64,000 nucleotides of DNA from Roseibium polysiphoniae. GTDB lineage: Bacteria > Pseudomonadota > Alphaproteobacteria > Rhizobiales > Stappiaceae. Below are positions 22,044 through 35,941 of the stretch, piece after piece (position 1 is the first letter of the stretch; the number at the start of each line of letters is the position of its first letter). A program made the position numbers and the translations under genes. The DNA lies in the NCBI RefSeq assembly GCF_014842925.1, contig NZ_JACYXJ010000008.1:1-64000 (forward strand), read 5' to 3'. The notes below the pieces were generated by a model, which worked only from the letters and a program-made list of their open reading frames with translations, was not told the origin of the DNA and made no database searches.

Positions 22044-22092
22044 TTGACACCGATCAATTTTCGAGATCCAGTACTGGGTAATTATGAAGTGC
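22044..22092 (+). promoter_or_regulatory. Class II FNR-type promoter of the arginine deiminase/V-ATPase operon
   Basis: TTGACACCGATCAA at 22044-22057 matches the FNR/Anr consensus TTGAT-N4-ATCAA with one change. AATTAT at 22080-22085 fits a -10 box; if transcription starts at 22092 the FNR site is centred at -41.5, the class II activator position. A second near-match, TTGATACCGACGAA, is at 22098-22111 in the leader. GGGAGGG lies seven bases before the first ATG (22160). Control by oxygen limitation is inferred. Confidence 0.72.
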
Positions 22093-22159
22093 GGGATTTG
22101 ATACCGACGAATTTAGACTGAAAAGAAACCCGCTAAGCGTCACCTGGGAGGGATGCTTT

Positions 22160-23560
22160 ATGAGCAAGTTTCAATTTCCGACTGCCTTCACGATCCTTTT
22201 TGCATTGATCGTTCTCGTTGCCGCCGCCACATGGATCATTCCCGCCGGGGAATATGACCGGACCTTCAGTGAGAGCCTTGGACGCGATGTTCCGGTTCCT
22301 GGCACCTATCACACCGTGGAAGGCGACCAGCAGGGCGTCATCGACGTCTTCATGGCGCCGATTGCAGGCCTCTACAATCCGGAAACCGGCCAAGCAAACG
22401 CCATCGATGTTGCCGTCTTCGTTCTGATCATCGGCGGCTTTTTGATGGTGGTGACCCATACGGGCGCAATAGACGCGGGCATCGCGAAGGTGATGACCGC
22501 CCTAAAAGGCCGGGAAAAATGGATGATCCCGATCCTCATGGCCTTTTTTGCGGCAGGCGGCACAATCTACGGAATGGCAGAGGAATCCCTCGCCTTTTAC
22601 GCCTTGATCATTCCGGTGATGATCCGTGCCGGCTACGACAGCCTTACAGGCGTCGCGATCATCATGCTCGGTGCCGGCATTGGCACACTTGGCTCCACCA
22701 TCAACCCCTTTGCGACAGTCATTGCGGCCAATGCTGCGGACATCGCCTTCACCGACGGCATTGCCGCGCGCGCGATCATCCTTGTTCTGGGCTGGTTGAC
22801 CTGCGTGTTCTGGGTGATGCGCTACGCGGAGGCGGTCAAGGCGGATCCGGCTCACTCCCTTGTCGCTGACATGCGCGAAAAGAACCGCGCCCATTTTCTC
22901 AAAAGCGGCGACGAGGACGGCCTGCTGGACTTCACAGCCACTCACAAGATCGTCCTGACGATCTTCGTGCTGAGCTTTGCGCTGCTGATCTACGGCGTTT
23001 CCGTGCTCGGCTGGTGGATGGGCGAGATGTCGGCCCTGTTCCTAGCGGCTGCGATCCTTGTCGGTTTCGTGGCACGCATGGGCGAGCATGAGTTTGTCGA
23101 CACATTCATTGACGGTGCGAAAGACCTTCTGGGTGTCGCCCTGATCATCGGCGTGGCGCGCGGAATCGTGGTCGTGATGGATGCGGGCAAGATCACCGAC
23201 ACGATCCTTTTCTGGTCGGAACAGGCGGTCAGCGGCCTCGGGACCATTGCCTTCATCAATGTGATGTTCTGGCTTGAGGTTGCGCTCTCGTTCTTCGTGC
23301 CGTCGTCCTCCGGTCTCGCGGTCCTGACCATGCCCATCATGGCGCCGCTCGCGGATTTCTCAAATGTCGCTCGCGACGTGGTTGTGACAGCCTATCAATC
23401 GGCCAATGGCCTGGTGAACCTGGTCAACCCGACCTTTGCGGTCGTCATGGGCGGCCTTGCCATAGGGCGCGTGCCTTACGACAAATGGCTGCGTTTCACT
23501 TGGCCCCTGCTCGCGATCCTCGCGGTGATGATCATGATCGTTCTCAGCGTTAGCGCCTGA
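22160..23560 (+). CDS. YfcC-family transporter, probable arginine/ornithine carrier (ArcD2-like)
   Basis: A 466-aa polytopic membrane protein of the YfcC/DcuC-related ion-transporter group, with about eleven or twelve hydrophobic helices. The N-terminal FTILFALIVLVAAATWIIPAGEYDR is a family hallmark, as are GGFLMVVTHTGAIDAGIA (about residue 95), GTIYGMAEESLAFYAL (about 133) and LGSTINPFATVIAANAA. YfcC homologues next to arginine deiminase genes in other bacteria are annotated as arginine-ornithine antiporters, so exchange of external arginine for ornithine is proposed here; coupling to Na+ or H+ cannot be read. It is the first gene of the operon, directly after the FNR-type promoter. Confidence 0.82.
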   Translation: MSKFQFPTAFTILFALIVLVAAATWIIPAGEYDRTFSESLGRDVPVPGTYHTVEGDQQGVIDVFMAPIAGLYNPETGQANAIDVAVFVLIIGGFLMVVTHTGAIDAGIAKVMTALKGREKWMIPILMAFFAAGGTIYGMAEESLAFYALIIPVMIRAGYDSLTGVAIIMLGAGIGTLGSTINPFATVIAANAADIAFTDGIAARAIILVLGWLTCVFWVMRYAEAVKADPAHSLVADMREKNRAHFLKSGDEDGLLDFTATHKIVLTIFVLSFALLIYGVSVLGWWMGEMSALFLAAAILVGFVARMGEHEFVDTFIDGAKDLLGVALIIGVARGIVVVMDAGKITDTILFWSEQAVSGLGTIAFINVMFWLEVALSFFVPSSSGLAVLTMPIMAPLADFSNVARDVVVTAYQSANGLVNLVNPTFAVVMGGLAIGRVPYDKWLRFTWPLLAILAVMIMIVLSVSA

Positions 23561-23600
23561 GAGTGCGCCCGAGAACACACCTGCCACTTGATCAAACACA

Positions 23601-25025
23601 ATGGAAATTGAAATTCACGGGCAATCGATGAACCAGCCAATCGGCATGCAAACATCTGCAAGCAGCGACGAGACCGCACCCCGGCGGTCCGGTCAGCTTG
23701 GCTTGATCGCCTGCATTGCCTTGGTGGTCGGCAACATGATCGGCTCCGGCATCTTCCTGCTGCCGGCGGCGCTGGCACCTTTCGGTGCAATTTCCGTCGC
23801 AGGTTGGGTGGTGACCTCGTTCGGCGCGATTGCCCTCGCACTGATCTTTGGCCGCCTAGCACGGCTGACCAGCCGGCCCGGCGGTCCCTATGCCTACACA
23901 CGGGAAGCTTTCGGCGACTTTGCCGGGTTCCTGATAGCCTGGGGCTACTGGATCGCGCTTTGGTCCGGAAATGCGGCCGTAGCCGTCGCTTTTGTCGGAT
24001 ACATCGGCTACGTGGTTCCGGCGGTCGGCGAGAACAACCTTTACGGGCTGGGCGTTGCCCTAACCGCAATCTGGTTCCTGACAATGATCAACATCCGGGG
24101 GATCGAGGGCGCCGGCTTCGTTCAGGTGCTGACAACGGTCCTGAAGGTCCTGCCGCTGCTGGCGCTTGGTATTCTGGGATGGGCCTGGCTGGACACAAGC
24201 CACTTCACGCCAGTCAACACCTCTGAACTGTCTGACTATGCCGCTGTTTCCGCGACAGCTGCCCTGACCCTTTGGGCCTACCTCGGCCTGGAATCAGCGA
24301 CGGTGCCGTCCGCCAACGTCTACCGGCCCGAAGTCACGATCCCTCGGGCGACGATCATCGGCGTGCTGTTTGCCGCCGTGATCTATATCTCCGTCACGGT
24401 GGTCGCCATCGGCGTCCTTCCCAAGGACCTTCTGGCGACCTCCTCTGCACCGCTCGCCGATGTCGCTATGGCCATGTGGGGGCCGGTCGGCGGCGTGCTG
24501 ATTGCGCTGGGCGCGATCATTTCGACCTTCGGCACCTTGAACGGCTTCACACTCTTGTCCGGCCAGGTGCCCTATGGCGCTGCCCTCGACCGGGTCTTTC
24601 CGGAAGAATTTGCCAGCGTCAGTGATCGCGGCACGCCCGCCAATGCACTCGTGGTGTCGAACCTTTTGGCAAGCGCGCTCGTGATCATGAATTTTTCCAA
24701 GGGACTGGTGGAAGCCTTCACCTTCATCATCCTGCTCGCGACCATGGCAAGTCTGGTTCCCTATGCGTTTTGCGCCGTCGCCGAGATCATGATCCGGGTC
24801 GTGCGCGGACACAGTCTGAACGATCCAGGGCTGGCCGGCATCGTCGGACTTGGCGCGGTCGGTTTTCTCTATTCCATCTGGGCGGTCTACGGCTCGGGCG
24901 CGGACGTCGTGTTTTTCGGCTTCCTGCTGCTCCTCGCCGGCGTCCCGGTCCACGCCCTGATCCGCTGGCGACAAGCGCGCAACGACGCGTCTTCCAGCTC
25001 GAACAATCCTGCCATTGGAGATTGA
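23601..25025 (+). CDS. APC-family amino acid antiporter (AdiC/ArcD-like)
   Basis: A 474-aa member of the amino acid-polyamine-organocation superfamily with about twelve helices. The helix-1 motif GNMIGSGIF and the following [10 protein letters not shown] resemble arginine/agmatine antiporter AdiC and related basic amino acid exchangers; [15 protein letters not shown] and [14 protein letters not shown] (helix 6) are also typical. It probably exchanges arginine with ornithine or another product. The start is uncertain: ATG at 23601 or ATG at 23628, neither with a strong ribosome site. It shares the operon with a second, unrelated carrier, so two exchange routes are present for one pathway. ArcA begins at its stop. 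Confidence 0.85.
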
Positions 25026-25026
25026 T

Positions 25027-26259
25027 ATGACGGCGCTCGGTGTACATTCGGAAATCGGCAAGCTCAGAAAGGTCATGGTCTCCCGGCCATCTCTGGCTCA
25101 TGAACGCCTGACACCGGGAAACTGTCACGACCTGCTCTTCGATGATGTGCTCTGGGTCCACAAGGCGCGGGTCGATCACGACGATTTCCGCCTGAAGATG
25201 AAAGCCCATGATGTCGAGGTCTTCGACATCCAGGACCTTCTGGCCGAAATGCTCGACAAGGTTCCCGAAGGCAGGCGTTTCGTGCTGGACCGGCGGATCA
25301 CCGACAATCTGGTCGGGCCCGGCTTTGCCCGTGGCATGCGCCCCTGGCTGGACGAGCTGCCCGGCGAAAAGCTGGCCCGCCTGCTGATGGGCGGCATCAC
25401 CCTTTATGATCTGCCGCAGGAAATGCAGACGCCCCTGGCCAAGCAGGCGATCGCGTCTACAGAATTCCTCCTGGACCCGATCCCGAACGCCCTGTTTCAA
25501 CGCGATTCATCGTGCTGGATGTATGGCGGAGTCACGGTCAATCCGATGTTCTGGCCCGCCCGCAAGCCCGAAACGCTCTATCAGCGCGCGGTCTACAAGT
25601 TCCATCCGATGTTCACGGACGAAGACTTCCAGATCTGGTGGGGCGACAGCGATGAGGACTTCGGCCATGCCAGCATGGAAGGCGGCGACGTCATGCCGAT
25701 CGGCAAGGGTGTCGTCCTGATCGGCATGGGCGAGCGCACCACGCGCCAGGCCGTGCAACAGGTTGCCGAAAATCTCTTTGCCAAGAAAGGCGCTGAACGG
25801 GTGATTGCCTGTGCCATGCCCAAGAGCCGCGCGGCCATGCACCTCGATACGGTGTTCTCCTGCCTTGATCACGACAAGGTCACGGCGTTCCGCGAGGTGG
25901 TCGACGAGATCACCTGCTACAGCCTACGTCCCGGTGACGACAATCAGGCCGTCGATGTTCGGCGCGAGGAAGCACATCTGTTTGATGTCTACAAGGAAGC
26001 GCTGGGCCTTGATGACCTGCATGTGATCGGCACGGGCGGCAACGAGTTCCAGGCCGAACGCGAGCAGTGGGACGACGGCAACAATGTGGTGGCGCTCGCA
26101 CCCGGTGTGGTCGTCGGCTACGACCGCAACACCCATACCAACACACTTTTGCGCAAGGCCGGCATAGAGGTCATCACGATCTCCGGTTCCGAGCTCGGCC
26201 GGGGCCGTGGCGGCGGACATTGCATGACCTGCCCCATCGCACGCGATCCCGCATATTGA
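25027..26259 (+). CDS. arcA: Arginine deiminase
   Basis: A 410-aa cytoplasmic enzyme hydrolysing arginine to citrulline and ammonia, first step of the arginine deiminase route. The nucleophilic C399 is in the conserved [14 protein letters not shown] tail; [14 protein letters not shown] (about 215-228), [11 protein letters not shown] (about 275) with the catalytic His, and FQRDSS (about 157) complete the guanidinohydrolase active site. The ATG at 25027 follows TTGGAGATTGAT with the ribosome site overlapping the previous stop; a TTG four codons earlier is less likely. Genes for the next two steps follow directly. Confidence 0.97.
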
Positions 26260-26298
26260 TTTTCAGACAGGGCTTTCAAAAAGCCAACGGAGGATAAA

Positions 26299-27300
26299 AT
26301 GGCGTTCAATCTCAAAGGTCGCAGTTATCTCAAGATCCTCGATTTCTCCCAGCGGGAGATGCTTTACCTGCTTGATCTCGCAAGGGATCTGAAGCGGGCA
26401 AAATATTCAGGCTCCGAGCAGCCGGTTCTGAACGGCAAGAACATCTGCCTGATCTTTGAAAAAACCTCAACACGTACGCGCTGCGCCTTCGAGGTTGCAG
26501 CCCACGATCAGGGCGCGCACATCACCTATCTGGATCCATCGGGATCCCAGATTGGCCACAAGGAGTCCATGAAGGACACGGCCCGTGTCCTCGGTCGCAT
26601 GTTCGACGGCATCGAGTTTCGCGGTTCCGGCCAGAAGATGGTCGAAGAACTGGCAGAATTCAGCGGTGTGCCGATCTACAACGGACTGACGGACGACTGG
26701 CATCCGACCCAGATGCTGGCCGACATGCTCACCATGGTCGAGCACGCGGACAAGCCGCGCACGCAGATTTCCTACGCCTACCTCGGCGATGCGCGCTCCA
26801 ACATGGGGCACTCGCTGATGATGCTCGGCGCGATCATGGGTTGCGATGTACGTATCGTTGCGCCCAAGGAGAACTGGCCAACCGAGGACCTGATCAAGAC
26901 CGCTCAGGAAACCGCCGACACATATGGCGCGCGGCTGACGATCACCGAGGACGTTGCCGAAGGCACCAAGGGCGTTGATTTCATCCACACGGATGTCTGG
27001 GTTTCCATGGGCGAGCCCGCCGATGTTTGGGAAACCCGGATCAAGCTGCTGACTCCCTATCAGGTCAACATGGACGTCATGAAAGGCACCGGCAACCCGA
27101 ACGTCAAGTTCATGCACTGCCTGCCCGCTTTCCATAACCGGGACACGAAGGTCGGTGAGGACATCTTCCAGAAGTTCGGAATTTCCGAGATGGAAGTGAC
27201 GGAGGAAGTGTTTGAATCGCACATGAATGTCGCGTTCGAGCAGGCTGAAAACCGCATGCACACGATCAAGGCCATTCTGGTCGCGACGCTGGGGAATTGA
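26299..27300 (+). CDS. arcB: Ornithine carbamoyltransferase, catabolic
   Basis: A 333-aa transferase that, in this pathway, converts citrulline plus phosphate to ornithine and carbamoyl phosphate. The carbamoyl-phosphate motif [11 protein letters not shown] (about residues 54-64), [13 protein letters not shown] (about 133-145) and the ornithine-binding FMHCLPAFH (about 270) are intact. GGAGGA stands before the ATG. Sequence alone does not separate catabolic ArcB from anabolic ArgF; the position between arcA and arcC, and the length close to 335 aa, support the catabolic form. The stop is followed by arcC within three bases. Confidence 0.95.
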
Positions 27301-27302
27301 CC

Positions 27303-28235
27303 ATGAGGATCGTGGTCGCCCTTGGAGGCAACGCGCTTTTGCGCCGGGGTCAGGAGATGACCGCGGCCAACCAGCGTGAGAACGCGCGCACCGCCGCCGA
27401 AGCGCTTGCGCCCATCGGTGCGGCGGAAGAACTGGTGGTCACCCACGGCAACGGGCCCCAGGTCGGACTTCTGGCCCTTCAGGAAGCCGCCTACACGGAA
27501 GTCGAGGAATATCCGCTCGACGTTCTTGGCGCAGAGACCGAAGGCATGATCGGCTACATGATCGAGCAGGAGCTCGGCAATCTTCTGCCGATCGAAAAGC
27601 CTTTGGCAACGCTTTTGACCATGGTCGAGGTCGACCCGAAAGATTCCGCCTTTCAGGATCCGACCAAATTCATCGGCCCCGTCTACGACAAGGAAACCAT
27701 CGACAAGATGGCCGCGGAAAAAGGCTGGAGCGTAAAGCCGGACGGCGACAAATGGCGCCGTGTGGTCCCCTCGCCCTTGCCCAAGCGGATTTTCCAGGTC
27801 CGCCCGATCCGCTGGCTGCTTTCGGAAGGCACGATCGTCATTGCCGCCGGCGGCGGCGGAATTCCGACCATGTATGGATCGGATGGCAAGCTGACCGGGG
27901 TTGAATGCGTGATCGACAAGGACCGCTGTTCGGCGCTCCTGGCAAAAGACATTGAAGCCGATGTCTTTGTCATGGCCACGGATGCGGATGCTGTCTATCT
28001 GGACTGGGGCACTGCAGATCAAAAGGCGATCCAGCGCGCAACGCCAGATGCCATGGATGCCTTTGATTTCCCGGCCGGTTCCATGGGGCCGAAGGTTGAG
28101 GCAGCACAGGATTTTGCGAGGGCCACCGGCGAGAAGTGCATCATCTGCGCCCTTGCAGATGTGGCGGATGCCATTGCCGGCACCAAGGGAACAACCATCG
28201 CCGTGGACGCTGGAGAGATCGCCTACCACGGCTGA
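27303..28235 (+). CDS. arcC: Carbamate kinase
   Basis: A 310-aa kinase of the amino-acid-kinase fold that transfers phosphate from carbamoyl phosphate to ADP, the ATP-yielding step. Seen are [12 protein letters not shown] at the N-terminus, [13 protein letters not shown] (about 42-54), [12 protein letters not shown] (about 183) and [14 protein letters not shown] (about 222). The ATG at 27303 is used in place of a TTG two codons earlier. It ends the arginine deiminase gene set; 99 bases carrying a hairpin separate it from the V-ATPase genes. Confidence 0.96.
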
Positions 28236-28284
28236 TTGCATTTCTGGCCCAAAGCGGGGCCAGATCGAGTTAAGCTACTCCTGA

Positions 28285-28315
28285 GGCTCGCGCCCATTGG
28301 GCATCAGCGAGCGCC
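28285..28315 (+). other. Stem-loop between arcC and the V-ATPase genes
   Basis: GGCTCGC (28285-28291) and GCGAGCGCC (28307-28315) pair, and within them GCCC/GGGC pair around ATT. No T run follows and the atpB ribosome site begins about ten bases later. It may set relative expression of the two halves of the operon by processing or stabilising the message rather than ending it. Confidence 0.4.
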
Positions 28316-28334
28316 GGAGAAAGAGGGGAAAGCG

Positions 28335-29717
28335 ATGCTGGTATCCCATACCCGGATTGTCGATATTGTCGGCGACATCATCCGGATCAAGGTTTCTGCG
28401 GATCGGAAGGCCAGCGAGGGTCGGCCCTGTCTCGGCGATCTCGCCCTTGTGGAGACCGGGGACGGCTCAACGTCTCTTGCCCAGGTCATCAGCATCGACC
28501 GCGACATGGTCTCGCTTCAGGTCAACTCCGGCACCAAGGGACTGGCCAACAACGCGTCGGTCAGGTTCCTCGGAGAAGCAGCCAAGGTGACCTATTCCGA
28601 CAATATTCTCGGCCGGGTCTTCGATGGCGCCGGCCAGCCGATCGACCGCGGCCCTGGTCTTTCCGGTGATCCAACAGTGCCAATTGGCGGGCCTTCGGCC
28701 AATCCGATGAAGCGTGTTCTAGCCTCGCGCATGATCCGCACCGATGTTCCCATGATCGATATCTTCAACTGTCTTGTTGAAAGCCAGAAGATCCCGATCT
28801 TCTCCGTTTCCGGGGAACCCTATAACGCCTTTCTCGCGCGGATCGGGATCCAGGCCGATGCCGACATTGTCATCTTCGGCGGGCTTGGGCTGATCTTCGA
28901 CGACTACGCCTTCTTCCGAAAGCAGTTCGAGGACGCCGGCGTTTTCCCCAGAACCGTCATGTTCGTCAATCAGGCCTCCGATCCTGTGGTCGAACGCCTG
29001 CAGGTGCCGGACATGGCGCTGGCAGTGGCTGAAAAATTCGCGGTCGAGGAAGGCAAGCGCGTCCTTGTGTTGATGACCGACATGACCGCCTTTGCTGACG
29101 CCTTGAAGGAAGTCTCGATCGCCATGGAGCGGGTTCCCGCAAACCGCGGCTACCCCGGCGATCTCTATTCGCAGCTGGCACGCCGTTATGAAAAAGCCTG
29201 TGATTTCAGAGGCTCCGGTTCTGTGACGATCCTGACCGTCACGACCATGCCGGGCAACGATCTGACCCATCCGGTGCCCGACAACACCGGCTATATCACC
29301 GAGGGGCAGTTCTATCTGCACAGTGGCGTCCTGGATCCATTCGGGTCGCTCTCACGCCTCAAGCAGCATGTCATCGGCAAGGTCACCCGCGAAGACCACA
29401 ATCAGATCATGAACACGATGATCCGCCTCTATTCCGGTGCCCGGGACGCCGAACAGAAGCAGTCGATGGCGTTTGAGCTGTCCGACTATGACCATCAGCT
29501 CCTGAAATTCGGTACCTTGTTCCGAGAGCGCTTCATGGATATTGACGTTTCGATGCCGCTGGAGGAAGCGCTCGACCTTTGCTGGCAAACACTGGCGGAG
29601 TGTTTCGAGCCGGGCCAGCTGCTAATGAAACAGGGTCTGATCGATACCTATTTCCCCAAGACGGGATCGCAAAAAACAGATCTCAAAACCACGGAACCGC
29701 CTGAGGAAGCAGCCTGA
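28335..29717 (+). CDS. atpB: V-type ATPase subunit B
   Basis: A 460-aa non-catalytic nucleotide-binding subunit of the V1 head. It has the beta-barrel N-terminus (MLVSHTRIVDIVGDIIRI), then the degenerate P-loop region IPIFSVSGEPYNAFLARI (about 150-167), which lacks GKT as expected for B, then VLVLMTDMTAFADALKEVS (about 236) and GYPGDLYSQLARRYEKA (about 261). The TTG-initiated frame from 28236 adds 33 residues across the intergenic hairpin; ATG 28335 follows AGAGGGGAAAG and is preferred. Length is normal. It is the first of seven V-ATPase genes; its stop overlaps the next start (TGATG). Confidence 0.96.
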   Translation: MLVSHTRIVDIVGDIIRIKVSADRKASEGRPCLGDLALVETGDGSTSLAQVISIDRDMVSLQVNSGTKGLANNASVRFLGEAAKVTYSDNILGRVFDGAGQPIDRGPGLSGDPTVPIGGPSANPMKRVLASRMIRTDVPMIDIFNCLVESQKIPIFSVSGEPYNAFLARIGIQADADIVIFGGLGLIFDDYAFFRKQFEDAGVFPRTVMFVNQASDPVVERLQVPDMALAVAEKFAVEEGKRVLVLMTDMTAFADALKEVSIAMERVPANRGYPGDLYSQLARRYEKACDFRGSGSVTILTVTTMPGNDLTHPVPDNTGYITEGQFYLHSGVLDPFGSLSRLKQHVIGKVTREDHNQIMNTMIRLYSGARDAEQKQSMAFELSDYDHQLLKFGTLFRERFMDIDVSMPLEEALDLCWQTLAECFEPGQLLMKQGLIDTYFPKTGSQKTDLKTTEPPEEAA

Positions 29718-30340
29718 TGGCAAAGCTTGCGCTCAACAAGTCCTCTTTGGCCCGCGAGACGTCGCAGCTCGCCGAGTTCCGGCGTTTTCTGCCGTCGCTT
29801 GAGCTCAAGCGGTTGCAGATGATGGCCGAGCGCGCGAAGGCAAAGGAGGCCGTTGCACGGCTCGACAAGGAATACTCTCAGCTCTTCAGCCAGATTGCCG
29901 ACAGCATTCCCATGCTGGCCAATGAACAGGTTCCCCTCGATGGCCTGATTAGCCTCCAGAACGTGGAGCGCGGCAGTCAGAACCTGTCAGGCACGATCCT
30001 GCCAACGCTTGGTGAGGTTGAAATCGAGACAGCGCCTTACTCGCGCCTTGCACGGCCGCATTGGGTCGATCCAGTGGTCAAGGCCCTGAAGGACCTCGTC
30101 ACCTTCAACTTGAAGCGCGACGTGGCGCGCGAGAGGCTGGACCTGCTGATCGAGGCGGAGGCGGTCATCTCGCGCAGGGTCAACCTGTTCGAGAAGGTCC
30201 TGATCCCCCAGGCTGAGAAGAACATCAAGAAAATCCGCATGGCCATGGCCGACGCGGAACGCGATGCCGTCGTGCGCGCCAAGATCTCGAAGCGCAAGAC
30301 CGCCGCACGGGCCGCCGAAGAAAGGATGGCCGAGCTATGA
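29717..30340 (+). CDS. atpD: V-type ATPase subunit D (central stalk)
   Basis: A 207-aa subunit of the rotating central shaft. It is predicted to be a long antiparallel coiled coil: the first 70 residues (ETSQLAEFRRFLPSLELKRL, then KAKEAVARLDKEYSQLFSQI) and the last 60 are charged and heptad-like, with a short middle region. The usual LKR-x-LQ-like segment is present. It overlaps atpB at the start and atpI at the stop, so it is translated in step with them. With no F subunit gene found, D may act alone or with the DUF2764 protein in the rotor. Confidence 0.92.
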   Translation: MAKLALNKSSLARETSQLAEFRRFLPSLELKRLQMMAERAKAKEAVARLDKEYSQLFSQIADSIPMLANEQVPLDGLISLQNVERGSQNLSGTILPTLGEVEIETAPYSRLARPHWVDPVVKALKDLVTFNLKRDVARERLDLLIEAEAVISRRVNLFEKVLIPQAEKNIKKIRMAMADAERDAVVRAKISKRKTAARAAEERMAEL

Positions 30341-32130
30341 CCATCACGGCGCTTAAAAAGGTCAGCCTGATCGGCATCCTGGAGGACAAGGAGCAGGTTC
30401 TGGAGGCGACGCAGGCCTTTGGTCGCTTCCACCTTATTCCGCTGACGCCAGCACAGCGGGATCTGGAGGCGATTCCAAGCGGTACAGGCCGTGAAGCGGT
30501 TGAAGCGCTCCGGTGGCTTACTGACGCGCCGGCACAGCGCCGGCCAACCACTGATCCCGACGACTTCGACCTTCCTCAGATTGTCGAGCAAACGCTGCTC
30601 AACAAGTCCAATTTCAAGGCCTGCGAGGACAAGCGCGCGAAGCTGGTTCGCCGGATCAAGGACGTGCGGCCCTGGGGGCAGTTTGATTTCGCTGATTTGT
30701 CGGAAATCGGCGACTACCGGCTCTGGTTCTATGTGGTCCCGACCGCCAAGCTTAAGGCCATCGATCCGTCCGACAAGATCATGGAAATCGTTCATCAGGA
30801 CAAGTACCGCGCCTATGTGGTGTTGCTGGATCCTGACGAGCCACCGCTTGATGCGATGCCCGTGCCGCGCGTTCATGTGGGCGAGGTGTCGCTTTTAGAG
30901 CTGGAACACCGGCTGGAGCAAACTGAAGTCCGCCTTGAAGGCCTGGAACTGGAACGCCATGCACTGACAAAATGGCGCGGCCTTTTGGATCAGCATCTGG
31001 CAGATGCCCGGGATCGGGCCGCACGCGGACGCGCGGCTCTGGAGACGGCAGACGACGAACGCATTTTTGTCCTGCAGGCCTGGGCTCCCTCAGCTGAAGA
31101 AGCCGACATCAGCTCGCTTTGTAAGCAACTTGGCATTGCCGCCCATATCGAGGACCCGGCGGAGGACGACTACCCGCCAACGCTTCTCGCAAACCCGCCC
31201 TCTCTCGCGGCAGGCGAAGATCTGGTCCAATTTTATCAGACGCCCGGCTACCGGGACTGGGACCCGTCGATCATCGTCTATCTGTCCTTCATCCTCTTCT
31301 TCGGCATGATCATGACCGACGCCGGCTACGGCTTGCTGCTGCTTGGCGCGCTCTATCTGTTTAAAAAGCGCTTCGGCACATCTCCTGGAGCTCTGCGGAT
31401 GTGGACCATGTCCGTGTGGTTGATGGTCTCGACCACGGCGTTCGGCGTGCTCACCGGTAGCTATTTCGGCATTTCACCGCCGCCAGGCAGCCTGCTGGCG
31501 CAGCTGAAGGTCATGCAGCTGGACGATGTCGACACCATGATGAAGATCACGCTCACGATCGGCGTCGTTCACATCACGCTGGCCAATGTGGTGCGCGCCC
31601 TTCACGGCAGCAGCATGAGCGACCGCGCGGTTCCGATCGGATGGTCCCTTGTCGCCATCGGCGGCCTTTGCACATTCCTCGGAGCCGAAACGCTGTTCGC
31701 GACGCTCGGCCCGGTCATGATCGTTGCGGGCCTGCTTTGCGTCGGTTTTTTCGCAAGCGACCGCAAGGTGGACTCGATCAAGAGTGCGGGGCTTCGGCTG
31801 TTCGATGCCTTTGCCGGGCTGGCGAGAATCGTCAACATTTTCTCCGATGTGCTTAGCTACATGCGTCTTTTCGCACTCGGATTGGCGGCGGCTTCTTTGG
31901 CATCAACCATCAACGATCTCTCGGGTCAACTGCTGCACGCAGTGCCCGGCATCGGCCTCCTGATCGCGATCATGGTGCTGGCCGTTGGCCATGCCATCAA
32001 CATAGGCCTCGGGCTGATTGCGGGCGTCGTCCATGGCCTGAGGCTGAATGTCATCGAATTTTTCAACTGGGGTTTGAAGGATGAGGGCACGCCCTTCCGT
32101 CCGTTCAAGAAAGAGGAGTCAGGCTTGTGA
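30337..32130 (+). CDS. atpI: V-type ATPase subunit I (membrane stator)
   Basis: A 597-aa homologue of eukaryotic subunit a. The N-terminal half (to about 305) is cytoplasmic with coiled-coil stretches (LLELEHRLEQTEVRLEGLEL near 187). The rest has seven or eight membrane helices from SIIVYLSFILFFGMIMTDAG on. The Arg essential for ion passage is R510 in SYMRLFALGLA, matching the SYLRLWALSLA-type motif of the family. It is shorter than archaeal and eukaryotic forms, as in Chlamydia and Bacteroidetes. ATGA overlap with atpD. Confidence 0.95.
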   Translation: MTITALKKVSLIGILEDKEQVLEATQAFGRFHLIPLTPAQRDLEAIPSGTGREAVEALRWLTDAPAQRRPTTDPDDFDLPQIVEQTLLNKSNFKACEDKRAKLVRRIKDVRPWGQFDFADLSEIGDYRLWFYVVPTAKLKAIDPSDKIMEIVHQDKYRAYVVLLDPDEPPLDAMPVPRVHVGEVSLLELEHRLEQTEVRLEGLELERHALTKWRGLLDQHLADARDRAARGRAALETADDERIFVLQAWAPSAEEADISSLCKQLGIAAHIEDPAEDDYPPTLLANPPSLAAGEDLVQFYQTPGYRDWDPSIIVYLSFILFFGMIMTDAGYGLLLLGALYLFKKRFGTSPGALRMWTMSVWLMVSTTAFGVLTGSYFGISPPPGSLLAQLKVMQLDDVDTMMKITLTIGVVHITLANVVRALHGSSMSDRAVPIGWSLVAIGGLCTFLGAETLFATLGPVMIVAGLLCVGFFASDRKVDSIKSAGLRLFDAFAGLARIVNIFSDVLSYMRLFALGLAAASLASTINDLSGQLLHAVPGIGLLIAIMVLAVGHAINIGLGLIAGVVHGLRLNVIEFFNWGLKDEGTPFRPFKKEESGL

Positions 32131-32576
32131 ACGAATTCGTACTCGCCCTTGGATGGTTCGGGCTATACGCACCGGTCGCCCTGGGAGCCATCGGAAGCGC
32201 CTGGGGTTGTGCCCTGGGCGGCAGCGCCGCAATCGGTGCGATGCTCGATACGGATGGCGGCTATGGCCGGTTCATCGGCGTCTCGCTGATGCCGTCCTCG
32301 CAGGTGATCTACGGCATCGTCATCATGTTCACCCTGCAGCATGACGCCATGACGGCGGAAATCGGTGCAGCCACATTCGGCATCGGGATTCTCTCCGGCT
32401 TTGCCTTGCTTTTCACCGGCGTGCGCCAGGGCGAGGTTCTCGCCTCGGCCATTCACGCCTCCAAGGCCAAGCCCGAGATTTTCGGCGTTTCGCTTGCGCC
32501 GGCGGCAGTGCTGGAAGGCTTTTCAGTCTTCGCCTTGGTGTTCGCCCTGGTTCTTGCCGGATCCATACCCGGCTAG
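32127..32576 (+). CDS. atpK: V-type ATPase proteolipid subunit K, probable Na+ ring
   Basis: A 149-aa double-hairpin proteolipid with four membrane helices that forms the rotor ring. The ion-binding Glu is E130 in helix 4 (AAVLEGFSVFALVF). Set against Enterococcus hirae NtpK, S58 and Q59 (MPSSQVIYG) take the place of T64/Q65, Q101 (VRQGEV) of Q110 and E130 of E139, so the Na+ ligand set is kept. This points to sodium rather than proton transport. The first hairpin lacks a carboxylate, as in other V-type K subunits, which favours ion pumping by ATP hydrolysis over synthesis. GTG start in a GTGA overlap. Confidence 0.93.
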   Translation: MNEFVLALGWFGLYAPVALGAIGSAWGCALGGSAAIGAMLDTDGGYGRFIGVSLMPSSQVIYGIVIMFTLQHDAMTAEIGAATFGIGILSGFALLFTGVRQGEVLASAIHASKAKPEIFGVSLAPAAVLEGFSVFALVFALVLAGSIPG

Positions 32577-32585
32577 GAGGCCCTG

Positions 32586-33287
32586 ATGACCCAGCAAGAC
32601 AAGCTGACAGCCGCAGAAAATCCGGCAGGTGCCGGCGTCCAGGCCCTGATCGACCGCCTCAAGAGCGAGGGCATTTCGGCAGGCCAGGCCGAGGCGGACG
32701 CCCTTTTGGCCAACGCGGAAGCCAAGGCGCATGACATCGTCGCGCGCGCGGAAGCCGAAGCGAACGCAATCCTGACGAAGGCGCGGACCGAGGCGGAAAA
32801 GGAGCAGGCCGCCACCCGCGACAGTCTGCAGATCGCGGCACGCGATCTTGTGCTCAATCTACGCAATGAACTCGAAAGCCGAATACAGGACGAAGCAGGA
32901 CGCCTCGTATCCTCGACCCTCAGCGATGAGGCCTTTCTGCAAAAGCTCATTATCGCCATGGCCGGAAAGGCGCACGAAGCGGCGGCCATCGGCGCGCACG
33001 ACAAGATCGAGATCAGCCTGCCTGATCGCATCGTGACGTTCGAGGAGCTGAAGCAGTCGCCAGAAGCGGTGGAGCCCGGCACCCTCACCCATTTCGCCAT
33101 CGCGCTGGCCGGTGACGTGCTGCGCAAGGGCGTAACTTTTTCCAGCGCGCCCGGCTTTGACGGGATCAAGATCAAGGTTCAGGACCGGGACGTCAGCATC
33201 GATCTGACCACGGAAGCGATTGCCTCGCTTCTGACCCAGCACCTGCAACCGCGTCTGCGCGCGATCATGGAAGGGGTTCTTCGCTAA
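32586..33287 (+). CDS. atpE: V-type ATPase subunit E (peripheral stalk)
   Basis: A 233-aa stator subunit. The first 100 residues form a long Ala/Glu/Lys-rich helix (ISAGQAEADALLANAEAKA, then AEAEANAILTKARTEAEKEQ) that would run as a coiled coil along the head, followed by a globular C-terminal domain. No separate G/H partner gene is present, so E may pair with itself or with an unrecognised small protein. TAGGAGG precedes the ATG by six bases; the gap to atpK is only nine bases. Confidence 0.92.
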   Translation: MTQQDKLTAAENPAGAGVQALIDRLKSEGISAGQAEADALLANAEAKAHDIVARAEAEANAILTKARTEAEKEQAATRDSLQIAARDLVLNLRNELESRIQDEAGRLVSSTLSDEAFLQKLIIAMAGKAHEAAAIGAHDKIEISLPDRIVTFEELKQSPEAVEPGTLTHFAIALAGDVLRKGVTFSSAPGFDGIKIKVQDRDVSIDLTTEAIASLLTQHLQPRLRAIMEGVLR

Positions 33288-33291
33288 GCCC

Positions 33292-34014
33292 ATGTCCGAG
33301 CGCTTCCGCTATATCACCCTCGCCACCAGCCTGCCGCACCTTGGGAGCCTGTTTTCCCAGGCAAAGGTGCCGCTGTCAGAGTTTCGTCTGAAGCAGCGCG
33401 TCAAGATGCTGTCGCCCGAACACCAACGCCTGCTCAACCGGGTGATCGAGGTGACGGCATGGTCGGGCGTTGCCCGCTTTGCAAATGACCAGGACGTCAT
33501 TCGACTGGCGAGAGTGGTCATTGATGATCTGAAGGACAATCCGACACTTCAGGATCTTGTTCGCGCCCGGATGGAAACACGCACGGCGATCGCGGCACTT
33601 CGGCTCCGGCATGACGGGCAAGAGGATGCCGGAACGATATCCGAGTGGGGCTTTGGGCGCTGGTGCCGCCAGATTGAGACCCACTGGACAGACCCGGGTT
33701 TCGGCCTGTCGCATTTCATGCCCTGGATATCCGAGGCCAACCGGCTGATCCAGGCCGGCGAGCACATCGCCATGGAACGTCTCGTGCTTGGCGAAGTCTT
33801 TTCGCAACTGGACCACCATGGCGCCGGTCATGATTTCGATTTCGAGGCCATCGTCATCTACGTCCTGCGCTGGGTCATCGTCGAGCGTTGGTCGCGCTAC
33901 AGCACCGACGCAGCGCGTGAACGTCTTGAAACCCTTGTCGGCGACATCCTGACGCCCCCAACAGCTGCAGATACCGCGCGCGAGAACCCGCGCCCCGAGG
34001 AGGTCCTTTCATGA
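33292..34014 (+). CDS. DUF2764 protein, V-ATPase subunit C-like
   Basis: A 240-aa protein that begins FRYITLATSLPHLGSLF and is largely helical, with no signal peptide or membrane span. It fits the DUF2764 family, whose gene lies between E and A in Chlamydia (CT309) and Bacteroidetes V-ATPase operons, exactly where it sits here. By position it probably replaces subunit C (eukaryotic d), the socket joining shaft and ring; this is inference, as similarity to classical C is not visible. The assignment rests on context plus the N-terminal pattern. Four bases separate it from atpE and its stop overlaps atpA. Confidence 0.72.
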   Translation: MSERFRYITLATSLPHLGSLFSQAKVPLSEFRLKQRVKMLSPEHQRLLNRVIEVTAWSGVARFANDQDVIRLARVVIDDLKDNPTLQDLVRARMETRTAIAALRLRHDGQEDAGTISEWGFGRWCRQIETHWTDPGFGLSHFMPWISEANRLIQAGEHIAMERLVLGEVFSQLDHHGAGHDFDFEAIVIYVLRWVIVERWSRYSTDAARERLETLVGDILTPPTAADTARENPRPEEVLS

Positions 34015-35840
34015 CCAGCCATGTGACGTTGCCAGACCCGAGCGCAGAGATCATCGCCGTCCAGGACGATCTGGTGACGCTTGCACCGCTCGCAGACCAC
34101 CCTCTGATCAAGAACGAGGTGGTCTACATCATTCCCCACGGACCTGAACGTGAAGGCCGTCCAACGGAGTATCTGAAGGCCGAAGTGCTGCGTGTGCGCG
34201 GCAAGACGGCAGAAGCCCAGGTGTTTGAAAGCACAAGCGGTGTGCGGGTTGGCGACAAAGTCATCCAGACCGGCGAGATGCTGTCGGTCGCCCTCGGACC
34301 TGGCCTTCTGAGCACCGTCTTTGACGGCCTGCAAAACCCTCTTGCGGATATCGCCGCTCAGCACGGATTTTTCCTGCCGCGAGGCGTGTTGACCAATGCG
34401 CTCGACACAGCCCGCAAGTGGTCCTTCGAACCGGCGGTAAAATCCGGCGACCAGGTCCGGGCCGGCGATGTGCTTGGCAAGGTGCCTGAGGGGCGCTTTG
34501 AGCACCGGATCATGGTCCCCTTCTCGCTCAAGGGAAAATGGTCGGTCGAGCGTGTGCGCGAAGGCAGCTACACAATCGACGAGATCGTTGTGACGCTGAA
34601 GGATGATCGCGGTCAGACACGGGATTTGACCATGGTCCAGCACTGGCCGGTTCGCCGCGCCATACCGGACGCCATGGTCTCAGCCGGTCAGAGTGAACGG
34701 CTCTATCCCTCCGAGCCGCTGATCACCACCTTGCGCCTGATCGATACGTTCTTCCCGATTGCACGCGGCGGCATGGGCTGTATTCCCGGTCCATTCGGCG
34801 CCGGAAAGACAGTGTTGCAGTCGCTGATTTCGCGGTTTTCCGCGGTCAATATCGTGATCGTCGTGGCCTGCGGTGAACGTGCGGGTGAAGTCGTGGAGAC
34901 GATCACCGAGTTTCCGCAACAGTCCGATCCATCCGGCGATGGCACGCTGATGGATCGAACGGTCATCATCTGTAACACCTCGTCCATGCCGGTGGCCGCG
35001 CGCGAGGCGTCGATCTACACGGGCATCACGCTCGGCGAATATTACAGGCAGATGGGTTTTGACGTGCTGTTGATTGCAGATAGTACCTCGCGCTGGGCGC
35101 AGGCCATGCGTGAAACCTCTGGCCGGCTTGAGGAAATTCCAGGCGAAGAAGCCTTCCCGGCCTATCTGGATTCGGCGATCAAGGGCATCTATGAGCGCGC
35201 CGGCGTCCTGACCAATGCCGAGGGCGAGACCGGCAGCCTGACCATGATCGGCACCGTTTCTCCTGCCGGCGGCAACTTCGAGGAACCCGTTACCCAGTCG
35301 ACCCTTGGCACCGTCAAGACGTTCCTCGGTCTATCGGCCGAGCGGGCCTACAAGCGCTTTTACCCGGCCGTCGACCCACTTTTGTCCTGGTCCCGCTATC
35401 ACGCACAGCTTGGCGACTGGTATCAGGAGAACATTGGCCCGGACTGGGTCGCACGTGTTGAGGAGATGATTGAACTGCTCGGACGAGGCGACGAAATCAG
35501 CCGAATGATGCAGGTCACAGGCGAAGAAGGCATTTCGACGGACGACTTTGTCGTTCAGCAAAAGGCCCTGTTCCTGGATATGGTCTACCTTCAGCAGGAT
35601 GCATTCGACGATGTTGATGCGTCAGCGCCTCTTGCCCGTCAGCAGGAAACATTCGATCTGGTCTATCAGATCGCAACGCGGGATTTCGCGTTCAACGACA
35701 AGGATTCGGTGCGCAAGTCCTTCACCGAACTGACCTCCCTGTTCAAGAACCTCAATTATGCTGCAGACGGCTCCAAGGAACGCAATGGGCTGATTTCCCA
35801 GATCAAAACCCTTGTCGGCAACCTGCCGACTGCGCAATAA
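34011..35840 (+). CDS. atpA: V-type ATPase catalytic subunit A
   Basis: A 609-aa catalytic subunit. The P-loop GPFGAGKTVLQ carries K266 and T267; upstream is the non-homologous insert typical of A subunits (about residues 115-185, GVLTNALDTARKWSF to VLGKVPEGR). The catalytic Glu lies in CGERAGE (about 289), and DVLLIADSTSRWAQAMRE (about 350) and GEEAFPAYLDSAIKGIYERAG (two parts, about 379) follow. Length is normal. ATGA overlap with the DUF2764 gene. It closes the operon; no clear terminator was found in the 100 bases before galE. Confidence 0.96.
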   Translation: MTSHVTLPDPSAEIIAVQDDLVTLAPLADHPLIKNEVVYIIPHGPEREGRPTEYLKAEVLRVRGKTAEAQVFESTSGVRVGDKVIQTGEMLSVALGPGLLSTVFDGLQNPLADIAAQHGFFLPRGVLTNALDTARKWSFEPAVKSGDQVRAGDVLGKVPEGRFEHRIMVPFSLKGKWSVERVREGSYTIDEIVVTLKDDRGQTRDLTMVQHWPVRRAIPDAMVSAGQSERLYPSEPLITTLRLIDTFFPIARGGMGCIPGPFGAGKTVLQSLISRFSAVNIVIVVACGERAGEVVETITEFPQQSDPSGDGTLMDRTVIICNTSSMPVAAREASIYTGITLGEYYRQMGFDVLLIADSTSRWAQAMRETSGRLEEIPGEEAFPAYLDSAIKGIYERAGVLTNAEGETGSLTMIGTVSPAGGNFEEPVTQSTLGTVKTFLGLSAERAYKRFYPAVDPLLSWSRYHAQLGDWYQENIGPDWVARVEEMIELLGRGDEISRMMQVTGEEGISTDDFVVQQKALFLDMVYLQQDAFDDVDASAPLARQQETFDLVYQIATRDFAFNDKDSVRKSFTELTSLFKNLNYAADGSKERNGLISQIKTLVGNLPTAQ

Positions 35841-35941
35841 GTTTGCGGCACAGCTGAAAATCGGCGCCGGCGCGGTTCGGCACTTGCTCTCGGCGGTTTT
35901 ACAAATGCTCCGTTTTCTGGTGCCCAAGGGTTTGTTTTAGA

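Follow-up and report, generated by a model that had tools for sequence, protein, structure and literature searches.

We analyzed a stretch of 64,000 nucleotides from the alphaproteobacterium Roseibium polysiphoniae (contig NZ_JACYXJ010000008.1, positions 1 to 64,000; hereafter the window), in which the genes of the arginine deiminase route (arc genes) are followed by a cluster encoding a V-type ATPase (V-ATPase). Together they form a run of twelve plus-strand genes (22160-35840) that we read, with a probability of about 0.63, as a unit for oxygen limitation that uses ATP from arginine to power the export of ions. The run is real and well formed and unites two known modules, a union for which the literature searched gave no description, and a functional coupling of the two is likely; co-transcription, induction at low oxygen, the hydrolytic direction of the pump, Na+ as its ion and the benefit to the cell are what we infer. 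The pairing recurs across lineages and layouts, and also with a second kind of pump, which argues for a functional tie.

Arc and V-ATPase genes form one run

All twelve open reading frames (ORFs) of the initial annotation, which was made from the sequence alone, are present in the order it gave, with families assigned by Pfam and NCBIfam profile searches. Two carriers lead the run: a DcuC/YfcC-family protein (22160-23560; PF03606, 399 bits; NF008611 below cut-off), putatively an arginine/ornithine or citrulline exchanger, and an ArcD-like basic amino acid antiporter of the APC family (23601-25025; PF13520; TIGR00905, 346 bits, below cut-off). The genes arcA (arginine deiminase, 25027-26259; TIGR01078 above cut-off, with a GGGHCMTCP stretch at the C-terminal end), arcB (ornithine carbamoyltransferase, 26299-27300; TIGR00658 above cut-off, STRT and HCLP motifs) and arcC (carbamate kinase, the ATP-forming step, 27297-28235; TIGR00746 above cut-off) are contiguous, with their motifs present.

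The V-ATPase cluster begins with subunit B (28335-29717; NF002555, 700 bits, above cut-off) and continues with D, the rotor shaft (29717-30340; PF01813; TIGR00309 above cut-off), I, the stator and ion channel (30337-32130; PF01496; PRK05771.2 models below cut-offs), K, the ion-binding rotor ring (32127-32576; NF007200 above cut-off; aligned to 2bl2), E, of the peripheral stalk (32586-33287; no Pfam match; NF002424 at E 2e-24, below cut-off), a DUF2764 protein presumed to be a C-type subunit (33292-34014; PF10962, 19.7 bits versus a cut-off of 24.1), and the catalytic subunit A with its P-loop GPFGAGKT (34011-35840; NF003220 above cut-off). V-type A, B, D, I and K are thus all present, and we take the arc motifs and the P-loop to be catalytic signatures. 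The annotation of the enzyme as complete stands in the sense of the seven subunits of this clade and is less firm for E and C, which both score below cut-offs; no separate F or G/H subunit gene was recognized in the cluster. Subunit E was matched by subunit-E models alone, all below their cut-offs, and the C subunit was assigned by position: the structure model of the DUF2764 protein has a pLDDT of 90, and its fold search gave no match with E ≤0.001 (V-ATPase subunit d was found at TM 0.39, E 2.3).

The intergenic gaps, in order, are 40, 1, 39, -4, 99, -1, -4, -4, 9, 4 and -4 bp, in agreement with junctions annotated as mostly overlapping or shorter than 45 bases; the sole gap above 45 bp is the 99 bp upstream of atpB. 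Scans of the window for tRNAs and Rfam families were empty.

Promoter region and transcript boundaries

The gene run had been described as FNR-type, and a FNR/FixK-type box, TTGACACCGATCAA, with one mismatch to TTGATN4ATCAA, was indeed found at 22044-22057, 116 bp upstream of the yfcC start. One-mismatch FNR-type sites in the window number 3, versus 0.45 expected from mononucleotide shuffles. The heptamer TAATTAT at 22079-22085 is within one base of what we take to be the −10 spacing of class II FNR promoters, counted from this box. The close relative G056 retains the box within an intergenic region that is otherwise largely diverged, and it also has a perfect FNR box, TTGATCCATATCAA, at −171 of yfcC (L123). 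The same perfect box lies 252 and 269 bp upstream of atpB in two Modicisalibacter species (L105 and L112, respectively). The R. polysiphoniae genome has 20 Crp-type helix-turn-helix matches, three of them above 44 bits, and one of these three, a FixK-like regulator, carries an ETVSR helix, presumably a mark of FixK/FNR proteins.

The 99 bp between arcC and atpB (28236-28334, plus strand) had been named as the place where a strong promoter and a terminator would divide the run. Our scans matched neither a sigma-70-like promoter nor a terminator-like plus-strand site in this gap, with a promoter scan that is insensitive here (2 sites in 18 kb versus 5.4 in shuffles, and the presumed promoter also missed). 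The gap holds a GC-rich hairpin (TCTGGCCC...GGGCCAGA, 28243-28264) without a U-tract. Downstream, galE begins 101 bp past atpA and no terminator was matched in 35841-35941, so that the operon may continue into galE. The twelve genes form one FNR-boxed run, with a predicted single transcript.

Joined arc and V-ATPase loci in other genomes

The initial annotation had proposed a survey of arcC-atpB adjacency in Stappiaceae. We found the two modules adjacent in two of the nine family genomes that hold both (G000 and G056), and the adjacency recurs in other lineages. The B subunit of the window is 99% identical to that of G056 and 89-94% identical to same-genus copies. An arc operon of the same order is unlinked in G039, G031 and G033, and likewise in G061 within its 5.5 kb contig, and the 20 kb upstream of uvrA contain neither module in 10 of 10 other Roseibium genomes.

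Outside the family, four further alphaproteobacterial loci have codirectional arc and V-ATPase genes: L074 (titled Hoeflea), L115 (titled Rhodobacteraceae), L079 (a Rhodobiaceae metagenome-assembled genome), which has an extra ORF between arcC and atpB, and L134 (genome G270), which has a porin gene between arcB and arcC. On a plasmid of Qingshengfaniella alkalisoli the arc genes are divergent from the V-ATPase, and on a plasmid of Tateyamaria omphalii the carbamate kinase gene overlaps atpB by 11 bp, with no arcA match in the record. With V-ATPase B, not arc, as the plasmid query, eight records were matched, three of them at >60% identity; arcC adjoins the V-ATPase in two of these three, and the background of arcC on plasmids is 389 of 72,556 records. 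The Tateyamaria plasmid also carries genes for acetate kinase, phosphate acetyltransferase and fabI on the other strand, upstream of the arcC-V-ATPase cluster (L152:942-6002), with the acetate kinase gene about 8 kb upstream, and has two short annotated coding sequences at the place of the C subunit.

L074 and L115, whose records are titled as different families, have in common a 13.5 kb block (L074:3833-17339 and L115:1541-15047) of 82% identity, which extends from about 180 bp upstream of yfcC to the end of atpA; their flanks beyond the block (1.5 and 3.8 kb on the upstream side, 4 kb on the downstream side) gave no blastn match. In these two loci the twelve genes behave as a unit.

Phylogenetic trees and a probable repeated joining

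In a concatenated arcABC tree (16 rows) the linked loci are separate and four changes are needed, a single clade being rejected by the approximately unbiased (AU) test (p = 4.5e-53). The V-ATPase B+A tree (29 rows) also needs four changes, with one change sufficing in 0 of 200 bootstrap trees. The V-ATPase of the window is nested among stand-alone Roseibium/Stappia copies, and the B+A+I+K tree (78 rows) likewise places it among stand-alone Roseibium copies; the window arc genes cluster with unlinked Roseibium arc operons (arcA identity 85-88%). Counts of tree changes cannot separate gain from loss, and it is the nesting among stand-alone relatives, together with the differing layouts, that favours repeated gain; the join in the window lineage looks derived. 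A single origin of the linkage was rejected by the arc tree, and the V-ATPase tree would demand extra losses for it. Since the arc and V-ATPase trees give the Qingshengfaniella and window loci different neighbours, the modules were joined and did not merely descend together.

Arc genes beside a second kind of pump

N-ATPases are described as rotary enzymes that a cell has in addition to its normal F-type ATPase and that presumably pump ions at the expense of ATP (PMC11738941, PMC5376962). In genome G240 (L174:9449-17004) a complete N-ATPase operon is arranged as beta, epsilon, atpQ-like, a, c, b, alpha, gamma, and the carbamate kinase gene shares 22 bp with its beta gene. For beta, alpha, a, b and gamma the best-scoring models are those of the alternate F1F0 type (N-ATPase), and for epsilon and c such models pass their cut-offs; the 20 kb stretch gave no arcA or arcB match. 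Carbamate kinase alone overlaps the first pump gene in two cases, one V-type and one N-type.

Three further loci combine arc genes with N-ATPase-like sequences. In G037 (L128:7891-19146) the genes yfcC-arcA-arcB-arcC are preceded, on their own strand, by an N-ATPase-like cluster whose proteins fall short of the alternate-F1F0 cut-offs; what looks like a small inversion or a misassembly interrupts both yfcC and the alpha gene of the cluster. A similar cluster in G002 (L207:1-11949) is convergent with the arc operon at a distance of 1.9 kb. In G322 (L168:5407-10338) a gamma remnant of 60 residues, with 93% likeness to the gamma of G037, is found about 115 bp upstream of yfcC-arcABC. The ATPase match beside arc in L140 was discarded, being FliI, a flagellar gene.

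The class sample contains 36 arcC places; for most of them 10-20 kb were read, and several are truncated by a contig end. Two are beside a V-ATPase (own included), one beside an N-ATPase and one beside a remnant. In the 23 family genomes with arcA, the arc genes lie beside a V-ATPase in two and beside an N-like cluster in two. An auxiliary ATPase adjoins arcC in three of the four class-sample genomes that could be classed as having both (G000, G270, G240 and G255), a count that leaves out G159, G165 and G371, which have two alpha matches each and are unclassed. Such a pairing seems to have arisen on several occasions among related bacteria, in some of them with another kind of pump; this suggests a use of arginine to keep the ion gradient of the cell charged.

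V-ATPases without arc genes

The statement that V-type enzymes are rare among alphaproteobacteria applies to the class, with 5 of 385 genomes in an even sample (own included), and fails for the family, in which 45 of 87 Stappiaceae genomes have one; the accessible part of a 2008 tabulation already lists the V-ATPase of Labrenzia aggregata beside an F-type enzyme (PMC2359735). In the named relatives examined the V-ATPase stands alone. The public loci compared are the best 80 of 106 matches, and 12 of the 80 have less than 3 kb of upstream sequence, so that arc could not show there; the gene order B-D-I-K-E-C-A is seen again among them in groups that range from planctomycetes to cyanobacteria, mostly without arc. 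Two V-ATPase clusters differ in content: on a Halomonas KO116 plasmid (L154:1375-6321) V-ATPase B, D, I and K were matched along with a short E-like match only, and the cluster looks incomplete, C and A being unmatched in the stretch fetched; in a Methylococcaceae locus (L084:11510-13315) a laminin-G/DUF2341 protein gene lies between B and D.

An alignment of 21 upstream regions of stand-alone Stappiaceae V-ATPases shows a conserved block, in which a box resembling TTGATnCAGGTCAT occurs together with TTGTGC/TAAGAT, a promoter-like pair. A degenerate FNR-like box occurs within 300 bp upstream of 17 of 30 stand-alone V-ATPase loci, versus 0 of 330 control upstreams from the same loci; the Fisher p of 2e-21 overstates independence, as the rows are related and the pattern was drawn after the earlier box finding. 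Judging from these upstream regions, the V-ATPase looks oxygen-regulated even without arc. Since it occurs alone with its own promoter-like region in relatives, the V-ATPase does not need arc.

Subunit K and the presumed ion

Alignment to 2bl2 shows that K of the window holds all Na+ ligand positions (S58, Q59, Q101 and E130, plus Y62). Compared with NtpK of Enterococcus hirae, for which the Na+ site list comes from the accessible part of PMC2359735, Q65, Q110, E139 and Y68 are retained and T64 is Ser. Of 83 K sequences, 64 have Gln where NtpK has Gln65, and the Qingshengfaniella K retains it (by eye). The ion exported in the window lineage is most likely Na+.

Elsewhere in the genome, F-type alpha/beta-like matches and a single acetate kinase gene are found on other contigs, and two further ATPase matches are probably FliI. 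A search for NqrB (NQR2)/RnfD gave no match in the genome and was positive in 4 of 14 control genomes.

Relation to known systems

The window shares with the known arc operon (arcD/arcE-arcABC) the enzymes, the arcA-arcB-arcC order and a transporter ahead, and differs from it by the seven V-ATPase genes behind. ArcE is, we assume, of the DcuC/YfcC type. In the accessible part of a survey, arcABC is counted in 124 of 1281 species and 7 of 159 alphaproteobacteria, and ArcD and ArcE are listed together only in Lactobacillales, whereas the window has both DcuC/YfcC-type and APC-type carriers (PMC5300872).

The seven-subunit bacterial V-ATPase has the same seven genes as the window, where B, K and A score above V-type cut-offs; it is usually found without arc, and in the window it is placed behind arc. 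This is presumably the type labelled after Chlamydia, spirochaetes and Bacteroidetes, and if the Chlamydia/Borrelia order is E-C-A-B-D-I-K, as we take it to be, the window order would be its circular permutation. With the Na+ V-ATPase of E. hirae (Ntp) the window has the K ligand positions in common, whereas similarity is lower and the subunit set is different. Firmicutes with both a V-ATPase and the deiminase route are documented in an Enterococcus faecalis model (PMC5516852) and in Clostridium sticklandii (PMC3091704), and the accessible parts of these two sources do not mention a gene linkage between the two modules. The window pump resembles the N-ATPase, an auxiliary, laterally transferred F-type enzyme, in its presumed way of working; it does not belong to that family, as its subunits are V-type and not F-type in N-ATPase gene order.

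The initial annotation knew of no description of the coupling as one transcription unit, and we likewise found no account of arc joined to a V-ATPase in the open literature, which is weak evidence since subscription papers were mostly outside the search. Neither carbamate kinase nor the deiminase route is named in the accessible parts of PMC5376962, PMC4154653 and PMC11738941, and no search paired N-ATPase with arc.

Kinase genes beside other V-ATPases

A gene for polyphosphate kinase 2 (PPK2) lies in or beside the V-ATPase cluster in 7 of 7 cyanobacterial loci seen (Pfam was run on four). It is found between B and D (L067:1981-2799, L069:11374-12192 and L070:1568-2383), divergent beside B (L068:1599-2528, L072:7190-8092 and L086:8704-9633), or beside the A end (L078:17167-18165). 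The cyanobacterial PPK2 proteins are of two types, 30-33% alike, and among the other V-ATPase loci compared the sole match to a PPK2 query was in L079 (28% identity).

In Legionella brunensis (L111:7721-8863) the strand opposite to that of atpB carries an acetate kinase gene, about 1.1 kb upstream of it, and in L. longbeachae (L109:6815-7585) an enoyl-ACP reductase gene lies upstream of the V-ATPase. A general rule that V-ATPase neighbours are kinases was rejected: most of 40 neighbour proteins chosen, a selection from all neighbours, are unrelated, and include DNA ligase, spermidine synthase, IGPS, porin, solute-binding proteins and peroxiredoxin. We tentatively consider, at somewhat less than even odds, that auxiliary rotary ATPases of V-type and N-type are a convergent class of kinase-fed ion pumps, cyanobacterial PPK2 included. 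If this is true, such pumps would serve when respiration stops or light is lacking, and would build an ion gradient from phosphate-bond energy of non-respiratory origin. The kinase-neighbour rule is at this stage a lead, not a result.

Discussion

In the reading that we favour, low oxygen would induce one transcript from an FNR/FixK-type promoter near 22044-22092, and the carriers would take up arginine while releasing ornithine. The three arc enzymes would then convert arginine to ornithine, CO2, two ammonia and one ATP, the established products of this pathway. The V-ATPase made at the same time would hydrolyse ATP of the common pool and export ions, most likely Na+, turning respiration-independent ATP into an ion gradient while the F-type enzyme has little proton-motive force. 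Earlier wording by which ATP is "passed to" a "dedicated" pump was overstated, since ATP is a shared pool and we saw no sign of channelling.

Several observations weigh against this reading. Linkage is rare, being found in 2 of the 45 family genomes with a V-ATPase and in 3 of the 80 public loci (best 80 of 106); L074 and L115 have to be taken as a single event or as a case of transfer, and for 32 of the 36 arcC places of the class sample the stretch fetched gave no match to a rotary ATPase gene. Both arcA and a V-ATPase are present in 9 of 87 family genomes, a co-occurrence that is not enriched (P = 0.95); within the genus it is seen in 8 of 8 arcA genomes (P = 0.11), and for the class P is 0.31. 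Phylogenetic co-occurrence was therefore rejected as support for coupling. In L115 and L134 an FNR-like box with up to two mismatches is absent from the 450 bp next to the first arc gene, and that of L074 is weak; with the box weak or missing in three of the four distant linked loci scanned, we rejected it as a general mark of linked loci. Annotated arc genes within 9 kb of an N-ATPase were found in 0 of 5 alphaproteobacterial plasmid loci (chosen from 101 matches), and a general rule that N-ATPases have arc neighbours was rejected on this count. The hairpin between arcC and atpB could be an attenuator or an mRNA processing site, or could split the transcript. Phe replaces Gln65 in the linked loci L074, L079, L115 and L134, and by eye in Tateyamaria too. 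With Gln65 replaced in five of the six distant linked loci, Na+ is no constant of the pairing and the ion may differ between systems; Na+ specificity was rejected as a general mark of linked loci, the same Phe being found in the unlinked L071 and L073, and this residue looks like a clade feature.

Shared low-oxygen regulation might account for the run without any special coupling, the fusion having only saved a promoter while the pump uses ATP from any source. The FNR-like box already present upstream of more than half of the stand-alone V-ATPases examined, the perfect box at the two Modicisalibacter loci, the shared ATP pool and the lack of enriched co-occurrence all fit this explanation, which we nevertheless consider rather unlikely: it leaves unexplained why arc is repeatedly the partner and why arcC alone overlaps the first gene of a V-ATPase in Tateyamaria and of an N-ATPase in G240, and two distant linked loci lack a box of up to two mismatches while a third has a weak one. 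It is also unlikely, to a slightly greater degree, that the unit serves pH and salt homeostasis, with deiminase ammonia raising the pH and an ATP-driven Na+ pump then replacing Na+/H+ antiport, as the V-type Na+-ATPase of E. hirae does at high pH. The Na+ ligands retained in the window K and the saline or alkaline hosts, such as Q. alkalisoli, would suit such a role, and the loss of Gln65 in most distant linked loci would not; this explanation overlaps with the one we favour and does not exclude it.

We give little credit to the idea that the clustering is selfish or due to chance, the modules merely travelling together by horizontal transfer with no functional tie. The V-ATPase is patchy in the class sample (5 of 385), one 13.5 kb block stands in unrelated flanks in L074 and L115, and two linked cases are plasmid-borne, all of which speaks for such transfer. 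It accounts poorly for the different neighbours of the Qingshengfaniella and window loci in the arc and V-ATPase trees, for the several layouts and two pump families, and for arcC beside the V-ATPase in two of three close plasmid records (>60%) versus 389 of 72,556 overall.

A coupling of arginine-derived ATP to ion export would bear on the question of why certain bacteria that respire have another rotary ATPase in addition to the F-type enzyme. The joining of arc fuel genes to auxiliary pumps of two unrelated families is evidence for real function that is independent of the history of any one lineage, and the cyanobacterial PPK2 neighbours suggest a wider rule. The arc-pump unit offers a testable answer, in which the second enzyme would be a hydrolytic ion pump for anoxia and arginine one of its fuels.

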